DNA of 64,000 nt from Adineta ricciae. Lineage: Eukaryota; Rotifera; Eurotatoria; Adinetida; Adinetidae. Below the pieces are notes generated by a model, which ran no database searches, had not been told where the DNA came from, and saw only the letters and a list, made by a program, of their open reading frames with translations. The DNA lies in assembly GCA_905250025.1 (NCBI GenBank), contig CAJNOJ010000003.1:1157032-1221031 (forward strand), given 5' to 3'. The translations under genes were made by a program, and so were the position numbers. Positions 12,374 through 60,640 of the stretch are shown here, one piece after another (within the stretch, counting starts at the first letter, position 1; every line of letters starts with the position of its first letter).

Positions 12374-12898
12374 ATGGAAATCGATTCTAATTTACGTTCG
12401 AAACGTCGTCGTACCGAAGATTCTCCTGTTTCTTCTCAGTCTTTTTTATCCGACGATCCTCTTACCTGTCCATTTTGTACATTTACTACAACTTCACAAG
12501 TAGACTTTGATTTTCATAATCACATTCATCATCAACATCTATGTTCGCAATGTTCTTACGTATTACCCAGTTATTTTCTTCTTGAACTTCATATGGATGA
12601 AGTACATAATACATACTCATCCATTCAAACATATCGCTGTTTGATGGAAACATGTTCACAAACTTTCGCCAATTTGGATCAACGTTTACAGCACATGAAC
12701 GTCGAACATTATACCAAAGATCATTTACTGAATAGGATCTATTCGTTCTTTTCGCATCAAGAAGCATTTGACACAAAGAAAACGAACAAAGAAGAGAAGA
12801 AATTCGGATGTGATAGTCAAAAGACCTTCCTACGAAATTCACGTTTGAAACCACGCGAAGACTTTTTTGTTCATTGGGATGGTGATGATAATGACTAG
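12374..12898 (+). CDS. ZNF511: ZNF511-like C2H2 zinc-finger protein
   Basis: Single exon, 174 residues. After a short basic segment (KRRR) come C2H2-type fingers: CPFC with H..H spacing, a CSQC finger with LHMDEVH, and a CLMETC finger ending in HMNVEH. Spacing and order match ZNF511, a small conserved eukaryotic zinc-finger protein of poorly defined nuclear role. The frame is open upstream to 12302, but the methionine at 12374 follows an acceptor-like CATAG and is the better start. The stop is only 56 bp before eS12, so the two may be co-transcribed. Confidence 0.75.
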
Positions 12899-12916
12899 TA
12901 ATAATAATAGTGTGCG

Positions 12917-12929
12917 TTATTTATTCTAG
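12917..12929 (+). promoter_or_regulatory. Acceptor-like site upstream of eS12 start
   Basis: A pyrimidine-rich TTATTTATTCTAG lies between the ZNF511-like stop and the eS12 ATG at 12955. With only a 56 bp spacer there is little room for a separate promoter, so a spliced-leader acceptor or a 5'UTR intron is inferred. Confidence 0.35.
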
Positions 12930-12954
12930 ATTTCTAAACGTCATCCATATCAAT

Positions 12955-13368
12955 ATGTCGGACACCGAGATGGACGAAGCCCCGCGCGGCTCGGATGAAG
13001 TCGACTTGAACAAGTCGTTACAAGAAGTTCTTAAATCAGCTGCACGCAACGACGGTCTTGCACGTGGTTTACGAGAATCAGTCAAAGCTTTAGATCGACG
13101 TGAAGCACATCTTTGTGTGTTAGCCTCAAATTGTGACGAAGCGAATTACGTTAAATTGATCGAAGCATTATGTGCTGAACATAACATCAATTTACTACGT
13201 GTGGATGACAACAAAAAGCTTGGTGAATGGGCTGGTTTATGCAAATTAGACAAGGACGGTAAAGCACGAAAAGTTGTTCGTTGCAGTTGCTGTGTTGTTC
13301 GCGACTTTGGTGATGAAACACAAGCTCATGATCAATTATTAGAATACATGAAGAAGAGCAAACAATAA
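12955..13368 (+). CDS. RPS12: 40S ribosomal protein eS12 (RPS12)
   Basis: Small-subunit ribosomal protein of the L7Ae/eL8 fold, on the beak of the 40S subunit. 137 residues in one exon, against 132 in human. The conserved core is obvious: [46 protein letters not shown], and the [14 protein letters not shown] motif. The N terminus is acidic and variable, as usual. The start at 12955 is the first methionine after an acceptor-like TTCTAG. The coding part has no intron, unusual for this window. A polyadenylation signal follows about 90 bp after the stop. Confidence 0.97.
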
Positions 13369-49938: not shown

Positions 49939-50929
49939 ATGTCATCTTCAAACATTCATACGACAGTAAATTCGACTTCGTCTTCAACTGTGACGAAGTC
50001 TGCTTTACCTAGTGTTTTCGAATTACTTGCACAAGAACGTTTAACCGATTTGATACGTCCTTGTCTACGACAAATTTTAAAATTTCTTCATGAAATCCGT
50101 CCGCTCTCTAAATTTCTTCGCATCCTTTATCAATATAAAGATGAATTTATTCTCTTAATCGAGAGCATTGTTCAATGGCTTTATCTACATCACTATTCAG
50201 CACTGATCGGTGAACATTTCTATGGTTTGAAGCGAACAGCAAATCACCGTCTCCGTTCATTGATATTCTCTGTGTTTCTACCATATGTACAATCAAAACT
50301 CGAATCATTACAGGAACAGTTACGTGCAAATAATACTAATAATCCTGGTGCAACATTTCGCATTCTTTCACAACTCTTACCAAAAGTTCAAGTAAGCATA
50401 CTTGCCTCTAGATTGCCTATAAAACACCCAGAGATGCTTGATTTCATTGCAGATTTTCATCGAAGGTGTTTGTTGGCTCTATCGCATAGGATACGCTTTC
50501 GGTAAAATAGAATATTATAGTCCAGCACTTCAACTAGCCGGTGTGAAATTAACTTATTTGAAAGAGCCATCTCCCGTCATTCCGCCATCAACTGCCACCG
50601 GTCGACTTTTTGCACTTATCAGTCAAATTATGTCGAGTGGTTTATTTCTAATTCAATTTGTCGATTGGTGGAATAATACGAACAATGCAAAACAGAAACC
50701 GGCAAGTACCAATGTCATTCCACCATTGCCAAACACGAACTCAACTCGTCAAACGGTTGCTAAACGTCAGTGTCCTCTTTGCCGGCAACCATGCAATGTT
50801 CCGACCGCAGTTCTTGGCTCCGGTTATGTCTACTGTTACACATGTATTAGCGATTATGTCAACCGTTATCATCGTTGTCCAACAACGCAGCAACCGGTAA
50901 CAAGTGAACAGTTAATTAAAATTTATTAA
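49939..50929 (+). CDS. PEX12: Peroxin-12, peroxisomal RING E3 ligase subunit
   Basis: Part of the PEX2-PEX10-PEX12 retrotranslocation channel that ubiquitinates and recycles the import receptor PEX5. Two exons (49939-50391, 50453-50929) give 309 residues, against 359 in human. The N-terminal Pex2/Pex12 domain shows PSVFELLAQERLTDLIRP, LIESIVQWLYLHHYSALIGEHFYGLKR and hydrophobic helices. The C terminus has CPLCRQPC ... GYVYCYTCISDYV ... HRCPTT, a reduced RING lacking some zinc ligands, as usual for PEX12. Eight residues follow in the normal SEQLIKIY-like end. TMEM129, another membrane RING ligase, starts 130 bp downstream on the same strand. Confidence 0.95.
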
Positions 50930-50987
50930 GATTAGCCTACTTTCTTTTAAACAGAAATGATTTTGTGATTCGATTGATACGTATATA

Positions 50988-51035
50988 TTTATTTTCATTT
51001 GTTTGATTGTGTTTATTTTCATTTGTTTGATTGTG
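50988..51035. repeat. 24-bp tandem duplication in the PEX12-TMEM129 spacer
   Basis: Two adjacent perfect copies of a T-rich 24-mer (TTTATTTTCATTTGTTTGAT plus four bases) occupy a third of the 130 bp spacer, directly before the TTTTGTAG acceptor-like site. Confidence 0.85.
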
Positions 51036-51047
51036 TTTGTTTTGTAG
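51031..51047 (+). promoter_or_regulatory. Acceptor-like site upstream of TMEM129 start
   Basis: TTGTGTTTGTTTTGTAG ends 12 nt before the TMEM129 ATG at 51060. It suits a spliced-leader acceptor or the end of a 5'UTR intron. Confidence 0.4.
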
Positions 51048-51059
51048 ATAAATTCTCTA

Positions 51060-52426
51060 ATGTCTGCATCATTGTTAACGATCGATACATCCGAACTATT
51101 TATTCTTACCTTTCTCTACAGTATCATTTCATTTATTATCGTCCTACCGCCCAGTGAACTGATTTCGGCTGGTTTTTCTATTCAAAATATCTTTTCATAC
51201 TTCTTTACCGAAAGCGAAGAGATCACTTTTATACGATATCATATTAAACGTGTATCTAGTAAATATTTAGTACAGAGCTTTCTTCCTCTGGGATACATCT
51301 GTCTTCTGATCTATTATTCTGATTGGTCATCTGGATTCATTCAAGCCTGTCAAAGTCTTTTTACCGAAACACCAATAATCCTTCGATGTGTTTTATATAT
51401 TTGTCTGTTAACTCCACTTCTGTCGACACTAGTTGTTATTCGCTGGCATTTAAATGATTGTTTTCATCATCCAATTGTTCGTCAACTGCGTTTATTTATT
51501 CAGACCAATTCTCAACAGCAAGAACAAACATGGCATGCAGTTGAATCTTCAATTAATACAGAATTTCGACGTTACGATAAGTTTTCATGTGGCTCAGCAT
51601 CCTCCAACGTTCGCTGCTATGTGCTTGATTCCTGGATATTGAAATGTTCGATGTATCACGTGAACATCGCTCAACAATCGAACGTACGAGTGGAATTAGA
51701 CGAAGCGCATGATATTCACTTACAAGAAACCAACGAAGAAGTCTCGTTATCAACTCAATATCTCAACATATTAATAAAAAGTTACGATCCAAGAATAAAA
51801 CCATTCTATATCAGGTATACAATTGTAATATAGTGCATGCTTATGGAGTGATTTTTTCGAAGAAAAAAAATTATATTAGTTTGACTAATCAAGCAATTTA
51901 TTTTTACATGACATGTGAACACGCAAAAGTGATATTTAAAATATTATTCGATAAATTTAGACTGAGAGCAAGCGAATATGATGATCTTCGAGGAAAACTC
52001 CAGGCGAATATCGAAAATGTGAAGAATATTGTTGTACGACAATCGTTAAGTGAACTATTTCTCGAAGATTTCCGTCAACAAGTCACCCAGAATCCGAAAT
52101 ATCGATTGCCGTTAAATCATCAAGTATAACTCGTATCTAATCGATTCTTTCATTCACATTCTAGCATGTTTTAGGATTTGGATACATGCATTGGATGTTT
52201 ACAAACAAACGCTAATGTAAAACTAGTGAAAAATTGCGATGCGCCAGATGTTGGCCAATGCCGAACGTGTTTCTGTCGTCCGATGTGGTGTCTTGAATGT
52301 TTAGGTAAATGGTTTGCTAGCCGACAAGATCAAACAAGACCAGACACATGGCTTCAATCGAACTGCCCATGTCCATCGTGTCGTTCAATTTTCTGTATAC
52401 TTGATATATCTTTGATTGAATTCTAA
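51060..52426 (+). CDS. TMEM129: TMEM129-like ER membrane RING E3 ubiquitin ligase
   Basis: ER-resident E3 ligase that works in ER-associated degradation. Three exons (51060-51814, 51880-52123, 52175-52426) give 416 residues; human TMEM129 has 362. Hydrophobic helices lie at about residues 12-30, 80-95 and 110-128, followed by a cytosolic part. The C-terminal atypical RING has TCIGCLQTNANVKLVKNC, CRTCFCRPMWCLECLGKWFASRQDQTRPDTWL and CPCPSCRSIFCILDI, matching TMEM129 almost word for word and keeping the unusual Cys-only ligand pattern. It lies 130 bp after PEX12 and probably shares its transcript (inferred). Confidence 0.95.
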
Positions 52427-53288
52427 TTAAACATAGAAATCTCGTTTATTCAATAAACAAATTGTGCGAGTATATTTTGAGTGCTAAAAGTTTCTTGTAT
52501 ATCTCCCTTCGTCTTAAGTGTTCTTGAATGAGAATGACGTTACTCGAAGACGACAAATAGGCGAATATGTCTCTTTTTGGGGCCATTTGATTGCCGATCT
52601 TCTCATCGCTGTTACTTCATATGCTTTCTGCTTTTTTTTTTTATTTATAAAATGTTTTCTTTTTCTTTTTATCGTTTATACTCTTTAATTGTTATTGATT
52701 GATGTGACAGTGACTGTAATAACAATAAAATAAATCTTTATTATAGTGGTTAAATTCACTACTAATGTAAGTTAAATGTGTTATCACTCCGATTTTGACA
52801 TCGAAGAAATGTATAGGAGAAAAAGAAAAAGGGGTTATGTGGGTTCATTGTTGAAGAGTTTTAATTAAGAGAATAAGACGAAGGAAAAGAATTGTAAACG
52901 TAAGAGAGAACAAAAGACGTTGCTATTGATAGTGCCGAGTAACATTGTCGTCGACGTTATATATGTAGGCAATATGCAAACGAGAGAGCGAAACAAACAA
53001 AAGATGCATGTTTGATTGTTAAAATAATCATTACAGTAGTTTTTTTCTGTTTGATCTTTTTTTCTTCCTCGACGACTTATTGAAAGTCTTATTTACCCTC
53101 GTAAAGGTAAGTATGTTATTCAAACGAGAATTTGCTACTGGAAAAGAGCAACAAGATTCAATTTCTCTTCCTGTTTTTCAGACGTACAAGTGAAACTATT
53201 GAGCTGTTCCACTAAAAAACAAACTTCAATTTAAAAGTGTTTTTACTCGACAACATACAGCATACTTTCCAAAATTGTAAACTGAGTT
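52427..53288. other. Intergenic region with TMEM129 poly(A) signal and a likely 5'UTR intron
   Basis: 862 bp. AATAAA at 52452-52457 ends TMEM129. A second AATAAA occurs near 52725. GTAAAG/GTAAGT near 53106 followed by a CTGTTTTTCAG acceptor near 53181 suggests a 5'UTR intron of the next gene. No coding feature seen. Confidence 0.45.
52452..52457 (+). terminator. Polyadenylation signal of TMEM129
   Basis: AATAAA 26 bp after the stop codon. Confidence 0.6.
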
Positions 53289-53861
53289 ATGGATGCTCTG
53301 GTAGCCAACCGCGCTCAATCAGCATATCCACGATCAACTTATCGTTCCGAAATTACCAATGAAGATAACCACGTAAAACAACGTCCCAAGACAAGTAAAA
53401 GTGTACAACGAGCAACATCGAATCTGTATGAGCAGAACTCAGAAAGAAGTCGCAAATCATCTACGGCTTCATCAGCAACAAATTATCAACGACGATTGAA
53501 AACAGCAAGTAGTACGGGAACCACTACCACGCGACCTGGTTCTCGTAAACTTCGTTCTGAGGAAATTGAAAATCTTCTCCGAACTCTTGATCGTGACGAT
53601 ACAATCATCATCGAGCTTGATTGCTTGGCGAATTATCGAACCCTTATCGATACAATTGATCTACGTCAAACACCAATTGACTGTCGATTATTATGTGCAT
53701 TACAACAACGTGAAAATCGCATTGTTCAAAGCAATGCGTGTCGTGATATACGTTTTCATTCCTTACTGGATTTACTTCAACCAAAATTTATAGCAGAGCC
53801 AACTGAAGAACTTGAACCTAATGAAACTAATAATGATCCTGTTGCGGAATTTGTACAATAA
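53289..53861 (+). CDS. Unknown 190-residue protein
   Basis: Single exon. The N-terminal ~95 residues are basic and rich in Ser/Thr/Arg (RRLKTASSTGTTTTRPGSRK), likely disordered. Residues ~100-165 look like a small folded helical part (EEIENLLRTLDRDDTIIIELDCLANYRTLIDTI). The end is acidic (EPTEELEPNETNN). No known domain recognised. It is the first gene of the compact plus-strand run that continues with ERAL1, 264 bp away. Confidence 0.65.
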   Translation: MDALVANRAQSAYPRSTYRSEITNEDNHVKQRPKTSKSVQRATSNLYEQNSERSRKSSTASSATNYQRRLKTASSTGTTTTRPGSRKLRSEEIENLLRTLDRDDTIIIELDCLANYRTLIDTIDLRQTPIDCRLLCALQQRENRIVQSNACRDIRFHSLLDLLQPKFIAEPTEELEPNETNNDPVAEFVQ

Positions 53862-54090
53862 ATCTTTTCTGCATAAGGAACAAACTTGTTCTACTCGCGT
53901 CTTTCATTTCATGCTTGAGAAGAGGAGAGCTAATGTCCAGCGACATCTAACACTCCGACTGCTGCAGTGCGCACTGATAAAAGCCAACCAAGAGAAACAT
54001 TGTGAATCACTGCATTAAGTACTTTGCTGCGCATGTTGAATCGTGAGAGATGTTCTATAAAAGCATCGAGTTTCTTCTTCAAACTGCCAT

Positions 54091-54103
54091 TATCTTTTCT
54101 TAG
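54091..54103 (+). promoter_or_regulatory. Acceptor-like site upstream of ERAL1 start
   Basis: Pyrimidine-rich sequence ending TTTTCTTAG, 22 nt before the ATG at 54126. Confidence 0.3.
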
Positions 54104-54125
54104 ATTACTTTATTTGTAATCTACA

Positions 54126-56067
54126 ATGATGATACGACATCGAATCTCTTCCTGCAGTCGTATGTATACACAATCAATCCTTTCAATTCGAGCTATTCAT
54201 ATTGATTCCGATCCAAATGAGAAAATCGTTCCCTTATCTAAGTTCGATTTAAGTAGACCATTGGTTGGACGCACAAATGGTATGTCTCATTGAATGCATG
54301 TCAGTGACTTCAATCTTTTGTTCGTTAGCCGAACAAACTGCAATTTCGTTGCTGCATCCAGATATGCCTAATGATTCAGAATTGCTCAAAGTAGCAATTA
54401 TTGGAGCACCAAATGCTGGGAAAAGTACATTTGTTAACCGTTTAATGGGTTGGAGAGTAAGTTAACGCAGTAGATTAGAAAATTCTTCTATTGAAACAAA
54501 ACTAAATGATTTAGATTTCGTCTGTATCGAAACGGCCACATACGACTCGTCATCGAACAACAGGAGTTTTAACTGATGCTAATAAGCAAATTGTAAGAAT
54601 GTTTCTTTAGCATTTGTTTCTGAACAAATATTCTTTCACGATCGAATACCATTAGGTTTTTCTTGACACACCTGGTTTTGTTGCACCATGGCGTAAGAAA
54701 CGGTATACAAACAGACAACTTTTCATTCTGATCGTCTATATTTTCATTCTTACTTAGGCATAATCTAGAAAAGTCAATGATTCTTGATCCTCATTCATGT
54801 TTATGGGATGCGAATTTAAGTAAATCGAAGCAACTTCCTTTGATTGTATATTTCGATATCTTCGTCTATGTTAGTTTGTGTTGTACATGATGTTTCAAAT
54901 CATTGGCTTCGTTTCAAACTAGATGAAGAAATCCTGAAATGTCTCTATGCACATCCGGAAAAAGAAGCAATTCTTATTCTAAATAAAGTCGACTCGATCA
55001 AACGTAAGCGAATGTTACTAGACGTGACAACTGTTCTAACCGATGGTTCGCTCAATGGTATCCCTTATCGCTTGGATTCGCCGTACCATCGCAATGGTGA
55101 ACTTGATATGGAACGATTGTTTCTGAAAACTGCTCATGAAATGAATATACCTTTACCGAAAACTGAGAATGATTTCGAAAAGGAACGTTTACTCGCAGAT
55201 ATGAAAGAATACGAAAAGAAACTATTGGATATTCAATTGGAAAACGTCAATCTCGATCTTGAAGAACCGCAAGTGAAAGATTTAATCACTCGTTACGAAG
55301 AGAAACGTTTGACAATCGAGCAATTATCTGATGATGTCTCACCTCATGTTCCGTACAAATCAATGAAAGACATTAGTCCATTTGAATTTAAGAAAGATCT
55401 CATAGAAACAACGAATTGGCATTTGTATTACCAAAAATTATCTCAAATTCGTCTATTTACAAAAGAACGTTCGACGTGGCCATATTTCAATCAAGTTTTT
55501 ATGATATCAGCAAAGCAAAACCGTGGTATAACAGCCGTTCGGGTAAGTTTCGATCTTTCAAGACCAATGGCTATACTTGCTCGTTTTAGAATTATCTGTT
55601 TTCACGAACTCAGTCAGCTCCGTGGATGTTTCATCGAAATTTTATCACTGACCAATATCCACAAGAAATCGCTGAAATGTGTATACGAGAGAAGATGTTA
55701 GAATATCTACCCGATGAAATTCCTTACAACTATCTTTTGGTAAGTGAATTTGTTGATAATGAAAGGCATGTTTCATTGTAAAACATTCGATTAGACTAAT
55801 GATCGATGGGAATTGGATGACAACGATGTTCTTAACATGACTTTTCTAGTCTATCCTCGTGCTAAACAGTTGAAACGTGATGTTGTACGTAGAACATCTT
55901 CTTTATACTTGATAAACTAAATCAGTTCTTCGTCATTGTAGAGTGTGCTATTGAAAAATCATGGCGAAGCAATCAAATTAATTAGTATTGAAAGTGAAAA
56001 AGATCTCTCCACAACGTTTCGTTGTGAAGTTAAATTAAAACTAATTGTTAAAACTTCTCATGAATAA
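54126..56067 (+). CDS. ERAL1: Mitochondrial GTPase Era (ERAL1)
   Basis: Era-family GTPase that chaperones small-subunit rRNA during mitochondrial ribosome assembly. Nine exons (54126-54279, 54329-54456, 54515-54592, 54656-54702, 54758-54819, 54875-55542, 55590-55739, 55795-55884, 55942-56067) give 500 residues, longer than human (437). The N terminus (MMIRHRISSCSRMYTQS) looks like a mitochondrial presequence. G motifs: G1 GAPNAGKST, G3 DTPGF, G4 NKVD, G5 SAKQNRG. Between G4 and G5 there is an extended charged, coiled-coil-like insertion of about 110 residues, also seen in animal ERAL1. The C-terminal half keeps the PDEIPYNYLL signature that leads into the KH domain. IMPA1 begins 57 bp downstream. 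Confidence 0.95.
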
Positions 56068-56109
56068 ATATCAAAATCCGATGTGTTAATATTCATCTGC
56101 TATTGTTAT

Positions 56110-56124
56110 TTTGTATGTTTTCAG
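56110..56124 (+). promoter_or_regulatory. Acceptor directly abutting the IMPA1 start codon
   Basis: TTTTGTATGTTTTCAG ends exactly at the base before ATG 56125. The ERAL1 stop is 57 bp upstream, so the acceptor probably receives a spliced leader. Confidence 0.5.
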
Positions 56125-57450
56125 ATGTTAGAACACGATATTGATGTTTATTACAAAACTGTTCTCGATCTGGTATCATTAGCTGGTAAAGTAAGTAGGA
56201 AAATTCCATTAACACGGTGTACAATCTTTAGTTTAGGTGGTCTCTCAAGGGTTTTCTGTGGCGAAACGTATAGAAACAAAGAGCAATACAGTTGATCTTG
56301 TTACGGAATATGACCAACGTATTGAAGAGATTTTAATAAAACAGTTACGAGAAAAGTTTCCAACTCACAAGTTCGTCGAATTTGAAACGAAAGAGGAAAA
56401 GAAATATTTCGTTCTATTCAATATAGATTTATTGGAGAAGAGTCGAGCGCAGCCGGACATGAAGCAACATTAACTGATGATCCTACATGGATTATTGATC
56501 CAATCGATGGTACGACAAACTTCGTGCATGGGTAATTGATAGGAAATGAAAAGTTGTTCTCGCCAGAAGGTCTTCATGTATAGGTTTCCCATGGTAGCAA
56601 TATGTGTAGCGCTTGCTATTAATAAAGATGTCATTATTGCAGTAGTGTTCAATCCAATCTTGGATCATCTGTATTCAGCCGTACGTGGTAAAGGCGCATT
56701 TAAAAATGGTCGTCCGATTCAATGTTCTAAGCAAACAGGTTAATATCACGAAGATCTATGAAAAAAGAGAATAGTTGGAGGTCAATAGAAGGTATGAGAA
56801 ATGGATTTATACGAGTGTGGTTTGCTTTTTGTTTTGTGTTTTGCTTATCGATCTTATCTAAACAATTCATTCAATATACGTATGTTCTGTAGAACTTGGT
56901 CTATCGCAAGTCATTGGTGCATATGGATACAGTCGAGATCCAGCTGTTCTCGATGCGAAAAGTAAAAATCAACGTATGATTATTGAAAAAGCTCACAGGT
57001 GAATACTAGATAAATGATGAATCTGTATGTAAATACTTAGTTTCTTTTCTAGCATTCGTATGATGGGTAGTGCAGCATTAAGCTTATGTTTAATAGCTGA
57101 AGGTTCTTGTGATGCTTACGTTGAATACGGTGCCTATATTTGGGATTATGGTAAAAGCACAAATCTTCACCTTCGATTTCTCTACATAAAAGCTTCCTTT
57201 GTCTCGATATATTAGCTGCTAGTGATTTGATTGCCCGTGAAGCTGGCGCCTACACATGTGATCCCACAGGTGACTATGAGAATATGAGCCGTTGCTAGCA
57301 GAAACGTTTTGTTTTCTAGGTGCACCATTGAATCTTAGTCACCGTCGTATGTTATGTGCAGCTACAAAAGAACTAGCTGAGCAGATTTCACCATTGCTTA
57401 CACATATTGATTACGTTTCGGATAGTAAAAAGCCAACAGTGATTCCTTAA
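56125..57450 (+). CDS. IMPA1: Inositol monophosphatase
   Basis: Mg-dependent, lithium-sensitive phosphatase that releases free myo-inositol, closing the phosphoinositide cycle. Eight exons (56125-56190, 56237-56370, 56427-56531, 56584-56738, 56893-56998, 57053-57150, 57216-57269, 57320-57450) give 282 residues, against 277 in human. Metal-site residues are intact: GEES (E71/E72), [12 protein letters not shown] (D91, D94) and the late WD motif (WDYAASD). The start ATG immediately follows a TTTTCAG acceptor, so no leader beyond a spliced one is encoded here, and the N-terminal length fits the family. The spacer to the next gene, PTTG1IP, is 61 bp. Confidence 0.96.
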
Positions 57451-57497
57451 CTGTTTTGTAGAATGTCAAAGGATATTTTCATCGCGCTGACATCTAT

Positions 57498-57508
57498 GTC
57501 TGTTTTAG
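57498..57508 (+). promoter_or_regulatory. Acceptor-like site upstream of PTTG1IP start
   Basis: A TCTGTTTTAG motif 3 nt before the ATG at 57512, in a 61 bp spacer. Confidence 0.45.
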
Positions 57509-57511
57509 ATA

Positions 57512-58223
57512 ATGAAACGTTTCTTATTTTTAACTTTGATTAGCATTTTCGTCGGTTTAGCATCGAGTGTTCCTGATGCAACATGCAGACGTTTGTCCAA
57601 TTCAGACTGTGAACAGTGCTTGAAAGAATCAGGTTGTGCTTTTTGTCAAAATAATAAACAATGTTTTGCATACGATCTTTATCCGACTCATCCACCATGT
57701 TCAACGTCTGACTTAAAGTTTAAAACATGTTTTGGTAAAGCAATCGAAAAATAAATCTTTGATTATTGTGCACTACTATTTATAGCTAATCTTCAAACAT
57801 GGCTTATTATCCTTGGTTCAGTTGGTGGTGTGATTTTAATTGCTATTATCGTTATTATTATCTGTTGTCGTAAGAAATGTATTCAACGTACACGTCGACG
57901 GTGAGTTAAGCGTAGTGAGCACGCAATTTTTATGATTTCATACGTTTTTAGAGATCAAGCTAAAGAAGATGCATACAGTCGAAAAGTCGAAGAGCGACGA
58001 GTCGAAGCTGGAGTCAGGTTTGATTTGAGAACATTCTTCGCGAAAAAAGGATTTATGTTCTTCTTACATTCATTCAGGTCGGAAGAAAGAAAACAAGCGG
58101 CAGACAATCTTCGTATGAAATATGGTGAATATAAATCTCTCGAACTCAACTGATCTAAATCTTGTACTTCTAGGTTTATTGAAAGCAAAAGAAGACGGCA
58201 CTGATTACAAACGCTTCAGTTGA
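57512..58223 (+). CDS. PTTG1IP: PTTG1IP-like PSI-domain membrane protein
   Basis: Homologue of pituitary tumor-transforming gene 1 interacting protein, a type I membrane protein that binds securin and aids its nuclear entry. Five exons (57512-57734, 57786-57900, 57952-58017, 58078-58124, 58174-58223) give 166 residues; human has 180. Signal peptide (FLFLTLISIFVGLASS), a Cys-rich PSI domain (SDCEQCLKESGCAFCQNNKQCF), one transmembrane helix (LIILGSVGGVILIAIIVIIICC), and a basic/charged coiled-coil tail (RTRRRDQAKEDAYSRKVEERR) ending YKRFS, as in the family. TIM21 starts 182 bp downstream. Confidence 0.93.
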
Positions 58224-58393
58224 ATGGTCAATCGGCCCAATCCAGATTTTTTTCCTATTCTTAATGTCTTTCATAATGAATGATACTTTTTTCTTTATTG
58301 CAATGATTTTGTTTGAGTAATTTTTCTAAGTACAATTAATCTGTGATAATTTTTGGCATAATAAATCAAAAGAATGTATATGTATTTTGATCT

Positions 58394-58403
58394 GTATTTA
58401 TAG
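58394..58403 (+). promoter_or_regulatory. Acceptor-like site upstream of TIM21 start
   Basis: GTATTTATAG ends 2 nt before the ATG at 58406. Confidence 0.4.
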
Positions 58404-58405
58404 AA

Positions 58406-59299
58406 ATGATTCTACCTTCGATCTGTTTTGTTGCTAAACAATGTCAGCATCAATGGCGTTCGCCTCTATTTCGCAGTGTTCTTGTGATTAATCAACGACG
58501 ACTAGCAACATCAACGAAACAGAAGAAAGATTCGAAAAAACACGACAATAATGTTGTTGTTCAATCGACAACAGAAAATCAAATTGAAGTCGCGACATTC
58601 AAAGAGAAAGGTACAGCTCTTTTTCTTGATTTCTACTTATTTTTCCGACATCTGATTGGTATCTACAGCTCAACAAGCAGCAAAAGACACAGGCTATTCG
58701 ATTATTGTTATCGCTGGTGTTGCAGCACTAGGCGGTTTATGTTATTTAATGTTACGTGAATTGTATTCGAGAGAAACACCAAATGGAATTTATAAAGAAG
58801 CATCAAAGATGTGTTTAGCTAATACTGAAGTAAAGTGCATGTACAATATTGATACTTCGAACGCCGAACGTCTTATTTGATAGGTACAAGATGCATTAGG
58901 GACACCTATCATGGTTCATACAACACCGCAAGTTGGTTCCATGCGTATCAATAACGTCCGGTAAGGATTTATATCCGATTGTTGTGAAAGAGTATATCTC
59001 AAAAATGTTTAGTGCCAAAGTGTTCGATGAAAAAGGTCATCGAAGCATGACACTAGCATTCTATCTAACTGGCAAGGAACGAAGTGGCGTAGTGGGTGTT
59101 AAAGTTCAAAAAGTAAGTTAATTCCTCCTCTCATTGCCCACATAACTTTATGTCTATCTTTCTTTAGAATATCTCCAATAAATTTGTTTATGATTATATT
59201 CTTGTTCAATTGGATCGACCATGGCGTGGTCGCAATATCATTCAAGTACATCAAAATCTCGATGCATCCAAGCCAGCACCACAAGCACTCGATTTATAA
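58406..59299 (+). CDS. TIMM21: Mitochondrial import subunit Tim21
   Basis: Inner-membrane component of the TIM23 complex that contacts TOM22 and links import to respiratory-chain assembly. Five exons (58406-58610, 58669-58829, 58884-58960, 59013-59112, 59168-59299) give 224 residues, against 248 in human. A basic presequence (residues 1-45) is followed by a Lys-rich stretch, a transmembrane helix (YSIIVIAGVAALGGLCYLML), and the intermembrane-space Tim21 domain (VQDALGTP, KGHRSMTLAFYLTGKERSGVVGVKV, NKFVYDYILVQLDRP). An apparent in-frame stop at 58961 is removed by a 52 bp intron (CG/GTAAGG..TTTAG/TGCC), which restores the domain. Its 3' end is 92 bp from the convergent MAM gene. Confidence 0.93.
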
Positions 59300-59391: not shown

Positions 59392-60640
59392 TTAGTAACA
59401 TGGTCGAATGGTTGTTACCATAGTTTTTTCAGTTCGAGCATCTTGATCAATGTGACTGTTATGATAGTTAGTCAGATGAGGATAGATGTGCTTCTTACTG
59501 GAATGATAACGACGATCGATGATTGGAAACGATGATGATGACGGCTTCTTTCGTGCTGGAAGAAGACAATATTTGCGAAAGATGAAGATCGTAAGAGCAA
59601 TGAGAAGAATGGAAAATGCCATGGCAATGAATGCGTAGAAGATATAGAGGATAAATGTAAGAAATGTGATGCGTGGCGATAAGAATTCTTCCGATGTAGC
59701 AATCTGTGATGAATCATTAAATTTCCAACGAAAACGAAAGAATGAACGTCGAAGTAATGAGGAATCATTGCTAAAGAAAGGTGAATACGTTGTCCATGGT
59801 ACTGTTGTAGTCATCGTTGGATACGTTTGAGTTGTACTAGTTGTTGTTGTTTGAACTACAAAAGACAAAGATCAATGTCTTTGGTTCAAATACTCATGTT
59901 AAACTTTACAATCAGGACAGTTTTCAATTAGAATATCATCAATAGCAAACCAAATTGTTGAAGTAGATTTATTTTCCGGTAAGTGTCGAATTTCGATTTC
60001 AATCTAGAAGAAAAATTCTTCTGAAGAAACGTCCAAAAGACAGATATATTCTTACGCGAAATTCGTCTGCTGCTTTGAACGTCAGGTTAGCCTGTCGCCA
60101 GAGAGATTCAATTTCATCGGATGCATTGATATGATCTTGAGTTAACGCTTTCCAATGACCAAGTGAGGATGTTTGGGAATGATTAGTTTTGATAAGAAAA
60201 ACTTCGATCTGGTCGTGTTCATTTTCGATATTGAATTGAAACGTCAATCGAACAGTGAATGAACACGAACCAGTTAAGTATAACCATGGCGATGTGATTA
60301 CATCAGTAAAACCCTTCTCTCTGTCGATATGACTTTCATCAACAGCGGTTAAAACTGCAAATAAACAGAAGCTTTTGTTTTCCTCATTAGACTAACGGTT
60401 TTCTACCTTTATCTTCTGTTTCTTCATCGAGATTTTTCACTTGCCATCGTCGACCAATATGCCACTCGCAAGTGCCCAAGGAAAATGTACATCGTTGATT
60501 AAATTGAACCGAAGAAATGGATAGGAACATGAAATTTATCGTGTAATAGAGAAGATCTGAGGAAAAGGGAAATACAAGGATTTCATCTTTGAATTGAAAT
60601 GTTCAATCTTACATATTCTCATTGTTGATAGTAAAATCAT
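59392..60640 (-). CDS. MAM-domain single-pass membrane protein
   Basis: Five exons (60640-60613, 60556-60407, 60354-60056, 60003-59910, 59855-59392) give 344 residues. An N-terminal hydrophobic segment (YYTINFMFLSISS) acts as signal peptide. Residues ~30-190 form a MAM-like domain: CTFSLGTCEWHIGRRW at the start, the SPWLYLTGSCSFTVRLTFQF strand pair, and IWFAIDDILIENC at the end. A Thr-rich stalk (QTTTTSTTQ) follows, then one transmembrane helix (ILYIFYAFIAMAFSILLIAL) and a ~70-residue Ser/His-rich tail. MAM domains usually mediate adhesion next to other modules; here it stands alone. Exact ligand and role unknown. Confidence 0.8.

Follow-up and report, generated by a model that had tools for sequence, protein, structure and literature searches.

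A probable spliced-leader operon of four closely packed genes in the bdelloid rotifer Adineta ricciae

Operons whose transcripts are resolved by the trans-splicing of a spliced leader (SL) occur in several animal phyla. In nematodes the spacing of operon genes is roughly 100 bp, and the SL2-type operons of Caenorhabditis are same-strand clusters, resolved by trans-splicing, that resemble a run of genes found here in a stretch of 64,000 nucleotides (the window) of the bdelloid rotifer Adineta ricciae (assembly GCA_905250025.1, contig CAJNOJ010000003.1, positions 1,157,032 to 1,221,031 of the forward strand). Caenorhabditis uses an operon-specific second leader, whereas leader searches in the present work covered the published rotifer leader only. 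The SL operons of the tunicates Ciona intestinalis and Oikopleura dioica are described, like the run studied here, as combining one general SL with very short cistron spacing, the median being 1 bp in Ciona and 57, 33 or 31 bp, depending on the filter applied, in Oikopleura (PMC7986045). Their leader is unrelated to that of rotifers, and the tunicate values are distances between annotated gene ends, whereas those given below are stop-to-ATG spacers (44–319 bp). Chaetognaths (Spadella cephaloptera and P. gotoi), relatives of rotifers, are likewise reported to have operons with SL trans-splicing and short spacing (PMC2481426, PMC12460157); they use several leaders, whereas a single leader, whose use we infer, was searched for here.

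SL trans-splicing is established in bdelloids (Pouchkina-Stantcheva and Tunnacliffe 2005), more than half of whose transcripts are said to carry the leader (PMC1925144). As to operons, a table of 2008 enters Rotifera as ND (PMC2481426), and a paper of 2025 counts rotifers among the lineages in which both trans-splicing and operonic transcription occur (PMC12460157). A search of the open-access literature by title and opening of the abstract, a scope outside which the 2005 bdelloid paper falls, returned no description of a bdelloid operon; given that founding paper and the mention in 2025, such an operon may already be known.

Five open frames follow one another head-to-tail on the plus strand of the window, separated by spacers of 264, 57, 61 and 182 bp (Table 1). 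A preliminary description, made from the letters of the window, had read them as one trans-spliced operon of five genes. Its gene positions and spacers proved exact on recheck, and the distances that it gave from an acceptor AG to the last four starts (22, 0, 3 and 2 nt) were confirmed by scoring. The genomic anatomy upholds its operon for ERAL1, IMPA1, the PTTG1IP-like gene and TIM21, most firmly where the spacers are shortest (57 and 61 bp); gene 1 probably has to be dropped. With a probability of roughly 0.77, the remaining four genes constitute an operon that has very short spacers and is resolved by the SL. That reading draws on the gene order, the spacers, the strong acceptors in the shortest, donor-poor spacers, the SL RNA genes of the genome and the partial maintenance of the arrangement in a second block, on contig C8.

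Co-transcription, leader addition, the site of the promoter and the 3′ ends are what we infer from the DNA. A single transcript would start upstream of ERAL1, and the spliceosome would join the bdelloid leader, the product of SL RNA genes at other genomic sites, to acceptors 0–22 nt before each start codon, while the upstream message would be cleaved and polyadenylated within the same short stretch. Candidate 3′-end signals are listed in Table 1; the stop codon of IMPA1 is preceded by the variant AGTAAA. TIM21 could have its own promoter and yet still receive the leader.

Table 1. Positions of the genes and predicted signals of the run in the window
Feature	Position	Strand	Remarks
Probable 5′ untranslated region (5′UTR) cis-intron of gene 1, 75 bp	53107..53181	+	donor AAGGTAAGT at the 99th and acceptor at the 75th percentile of the introns in the regions analysed
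Gene 1	53289..53861	+	open frame, 190 aa
AATAAA overlapping gene 1 stop	53857..53862	+	
TATAAA (within TATAAAAG) before ERAL1	54056..54061	+	possible promoter element, not above background
Acceptor before ERAL1	54086..54103	+	22 nt from ATG; 9.5 bits, 81st percentile
ERAL1 (mitochondrial Era GTPase)	54126..56067	+	ATG at 54126, stop ends at 56067; first proposed operon gene
AATAAA overlapping ERAL1 stop	56063..56068	+	
Acceptor abutting IMPA1 ATG	56107..56124	+	0 nt; 8.6 bits
IMPA1 (inositol monophosphatase)	56125..57450	+	8 exons, exons 3–4 hand-corrected
Acceptor before PTTG1IP-like ATG	57491..57508	+	3 nt; 10.1 bits
PTTG1IP-like gene	57512..58223	+	label from the preliminary description
AATAAA 38 nt before end of TIM21 acceptor	58360..58365	+	
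Acceptor before TIM21 ATG	58386..58403	+	2 nt; 6.8 bits
TIM21	58406..59299	+	last gene of the run

A DNA search of the genome identified a diverged, homeologous block on C8, in which gene 1, IMPA1, the PTTG1IP-like gene and TIM21 stand in the same order as in the window. Amino-acid identity between the two blocks is 33% for gene 1 and 39% for the PTTG1IP-like gene, and the assigned start codons are supported because the proteins begin alike in both. Within C8, IMPA1 is separated from the PTTG1IP-like gene by 44 bp and the latter from TIM21 by 319 bp, and both of these downstream genes have an acceptor AG in direct contact with the ATG (7.4 and 5.4 bits, respectively). The comparable spacers align no better than shuffled sequences, the observed score being reached by 98 and 151 of 300 shuffles, respectively; since the contact between acceptor and ATG is kept all the same, it appears to have been retained while the remainder of the spacer turned over. 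The homeologous copies form a natural test of selection, in which the acceptor beside the ATG stays and the spacer is replaced. IMPA1 on C8 differs, with an upstream gap of 931 bp (C8:924417-925349) and an acceptor that is 48 nt away from the ATG, where the window has 0 nt. The second copy, in a comparison made within this genome only, retains three genes of the arrangement and lacks ERAL1.

Acceptors were scored with a model built from 222 introns of the regions analysed, whose own median score is 7.4 bits. Five of the seven downstream starts in the window and C8 blocks have an acceptor that scores 5 bits or more at 0–3 nt (5.4–10.1 bits), the other two being ERAL1 (22 nt) and IMPA1 on C8 (48 nt). 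The same holds for 35 of 1,525 intergenic ATGs (2.3%) and for 0 of 47 other predicted starts, a count that depends on the unverified models of a home-made gene finder. The three abutting acceptors of the window had prompted the preliminary description, and the C8 starts alone escape that bias, yet they are homologous and therefore not independent. The distance at ERAL1 is ordinary: 401 of the 1,525 intergenic ATGs have an acceptor that reaches 5 bits no more than 60 nt away, although few of them would reach its 9.5 bits. At the PTTG1IP-like start a second acceptor, of 7.4 bits, is present 50 nt upstream. Around the start of an IMPA1 paralogue on contig C483, no acceptor within 120 nt reaches 4 bits. 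Beside this paralogue, at L014 2843-7467 (C483, minus strand), two predictions 19 bp apart have near-identical start regions, perhaps the result of a tandem duplication.

Good donor sites are lacking in the shortest spacers. The best donors within the 57-bp and 61-bp spacers reach the 1st and 3rd percentiles, and those within the 264-bp spacer and the 182-bp spacer of TIM21 the 9th and 13th; on C8, the 44-bp spacer contains none and the 319-bp spacer of TIM21 one at the 18th percentile. A strong acceptor with no matching donor is thus clearest at the three shortest spacers (57, 61 and, on C8, 44 bp), and this pattern makes it very improbable that the acceptors serve cis-splicing, either of 5′UTR introns or of read-through fusions that skip the upstream stop codon. 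Formally, a 32nd-percentile donor in the IMPA1 coding sequence, situated 84 nt upstream of the PTTG1IP-like acceptor, would allow a fusion. On C8, the IMPA1 acceptor is preceded at 553 nt by a 73rd-percentile donor, and the gene finder, which is unaware of operons, merged the genes in this very manner; the products of such fusions would, however, combine unrelated proteins. The gene finder fused the genes of the run and mispredicted exons of IMPA1, since corrected by hand, so automatic annotation may do likewise.

The same short spacers bear on whether each gene might instead have its own promoter, located in the upstream gene or in the spacer, with the leader added to monocistronic pre-mRNAs and the close packing reflecting genome compaction only. 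Spacers of 57, 61 and 44 bp, which must already accommodate a 3′ end and an acceptor, appear too short for promoters, and the finding that no acceptor within 3 nt of the 47 other predicted starts reaches 5 bits also speaks against addition of this kind gene by gene. Spacers of 182, 264, 319 and 931 bp are not by themselves too short, and those before TIM21 in both blocks, together with the ERAL1 gap, could hold promoters; the report that more than half of bdelloid transcripts carry the leader (PMC1925144) also agrees with individual promoters, which we nevertheless regard as improbable. In the gene models of contigs C3 and C8, all nine divergent start-to-start distances are at least 331 bp.

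The proposed operon would draw its leader from SL RNA genes that are present in the genome. The published rotifer SL exon, tabulated in PMC3795323, followed by GT was found at 44 places, and the reversed control at none. At 41 of these places the exon has one mismatch, matching 22 of the 23 published bases, and at 3 it has two. All 44 genomic exons have T at the first position, that is, TGCTT in place of the published GGCTT; the published first G may be a reverse-transcription addition at the cap, or it may reflect a difference between species. One representative SL RNA folds with a z score of −5.3 relative to shuffled sequences, the end of its exon being paired with the donor. The SL sequence was not found inside the window. 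The SL RNA genes often form head-to-head pairs about 155 bp apart and are clustered on a few contigs (C6:235173-251415 and C8:239423-343230; loci L021–L039).

Gene 1, which the preliminary description had counted as the first member of the operon, is probably a neighbour outside it, because no acceptor within 60 nt of its start exceeds 1.2 bits, a probable cis-intron precedes it, AATAAA overlaps its stop codon and the next start is 264 bp away. The cis-intron suggests that gene 1 has its own leader. A single operon of all five genes, a proposal that overlaps the four-gene reading, is in our view unlikely: the 264-bp spacer and the 931-bp gap on C8 are roomy enough for a promoter. In its favour, gene 1 is on the same strand, the best donor of the 264-bp spacer stands at the 9th percentile against the 81st for the ERAL1 acceptor, gene 1 adjoins IMPA1 on C8 too, and the first cistron of an operon may possess a leader of its own. 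The TATA box before ERAL1 was given no weight, TATAAAWR occurring in 6 of 46 gene-start regions and in 24 of 246 intergenic 250-mers.

Several results weigh against the four-gene operon. ERAL1 was not found on C8, all seven genome matches (E ≤ 0.001) being the window’s own gene, and the 931-bp gap before IMPA1 in that block holds the 73rd-percentile donor. The gaps before ERAL1 (264 bp) and TIM21 could contain promoters, and contig C828 has two divergent predictions only 103 bp apart, one of them of only 90 aa. Within 60 nt, an acceptor is no commoner at other predicted starts (14 of 47) than at intergenic ATGs (401 of 1,525), despite the reportedly widespread use of the SL in bdelloids. Seven further predicted pairs of same-strand genes on C3, C8 and C483 are separated by spacers of 71, 233, 132, 190, 129, 154 and 19 bp, and none shows within 3 nt an acceptor that reaches 4 bits, although these models are unverified and may include split or duplicated genes. 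A check of 45 places for SL-tagged retrocopies found none, 44 of the places being the SL genes and one a degenerate copy with two mismatches.

Genome-wide motif tests lent the reading no clear support. The pattern AATAAA-N10-40-TTTYAGATG occurs 351 times, compared with 300 for AAATAA..ATG, 122 for AATAAA..GAT and 115 for AAATAA..GAT, and the corresponding reversed patterns occur 201, 195, 94 and 97 times, numbers that reveal no AATAAA-specific interaction; the design is weak because the two hexamers overlap in AAATAAA. Among 30 loci with the motif, two (L050 and L054) passed both coding thresholds, compared with 2.5% of 1,600 random ATGs, in a test that is insensitive because the C8 junction of this operon (L062) itself failed it.

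Gene models were inspected at L050 and at 7 of the 30 loci, mostly those with high upstream scores, and the other 21 loci were judged by scores alone. Three junctions resembling those of the run, each between unrelated genes, were found, with acceptors of 10.4–12.4 bits. At L050 (1405-1527; C6:92138), the stop codon of a PIP5K-domain gene lies 119 bp before the ATG of a protein with a dsrm (double-stranded RNA-binding) domain, which an acceptor of 10.5 bits abuts. At L053 (C6:198556-198610, minus strand), an open WD40 frame ends 25 bp before the ATG of an ERGIC-family gene with an abutting acceptor of 12.4 bits; the gene finder places the end of this upstream gene 141 nt before the ATG, the WD40 frame remaining open to 25 nt. 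At L064 (C9:177832-177880, minus strand), an Rgp1 gene ends 83 bp before a gene with no Pfam match, again with an abutting acceptor. L050 and L053 have Pfam families on both sides and a frame that is open from the acceptor, whereas L064 has a Pfam family upstream only. Having been selected by motif, the three loci speak to recurrence of this form of junction and give no estimate of its frequency. A motif nearly identical to that of L064 is present at C23:622963-623012, and the junction may be duplicated. L041, with Pfam families on both sides (myosin VI and DnaJ), was discounted, its ATG opening only three codons, and no junction could be demonstrated at L047, L054, L066 or L068.

As a case of a known kind of system, the run, reduced from five genes to four, appears well supported by its DNA. 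The balance tips slightly towards a broader proposal, namely that bdelloids have many tunicate-like SL operons, in which 3′-end and trans-splice signals share a few dozen bases and which are kept in both copies of an anciently duplicated genome. If so, operon structure would have outlived both genome duplication and long asexuality.

The names given to three of the genes in the preliminary description are borne out by searches. The best Protein Data Bank (PDB) match of ERAL1 is the mitochondrial GTPase Era (8csp, E = 9.9e-73), and a match to TIGR00436 above the cut-off identifies it as an Era-family GTPase; IMPA1, in its hand-corrected model, matches PF00459 over almost its full length (E = 5.1e-76), and TIM21 matches PF08294 (E = 2.6e-21). 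For the fourth name, PTTG1IP, a Pfam search returned no match above the cut-off, and gene 1 likewise has no Pfam match. A possible link of the run to mitochondrial function would rest on two genes, ERAL1 and TIM21.

Downstream of TIM21, the next gene is convergent (59392-60640, minus strand). Elsewhere in the window, at 12898-12970, two same-strand predictions are separated by 71 bp, the second start being preceded at 40 nt by an acceptor of 7.9 bits; this may be a further junction or one gene split in two. The gene that precedes gene 1 (window 49939-52426) is likewise collinear with C8 (C8:926584-927563) and ends in a segment that, as judged by eye, is cysteine-rich and RING-like.

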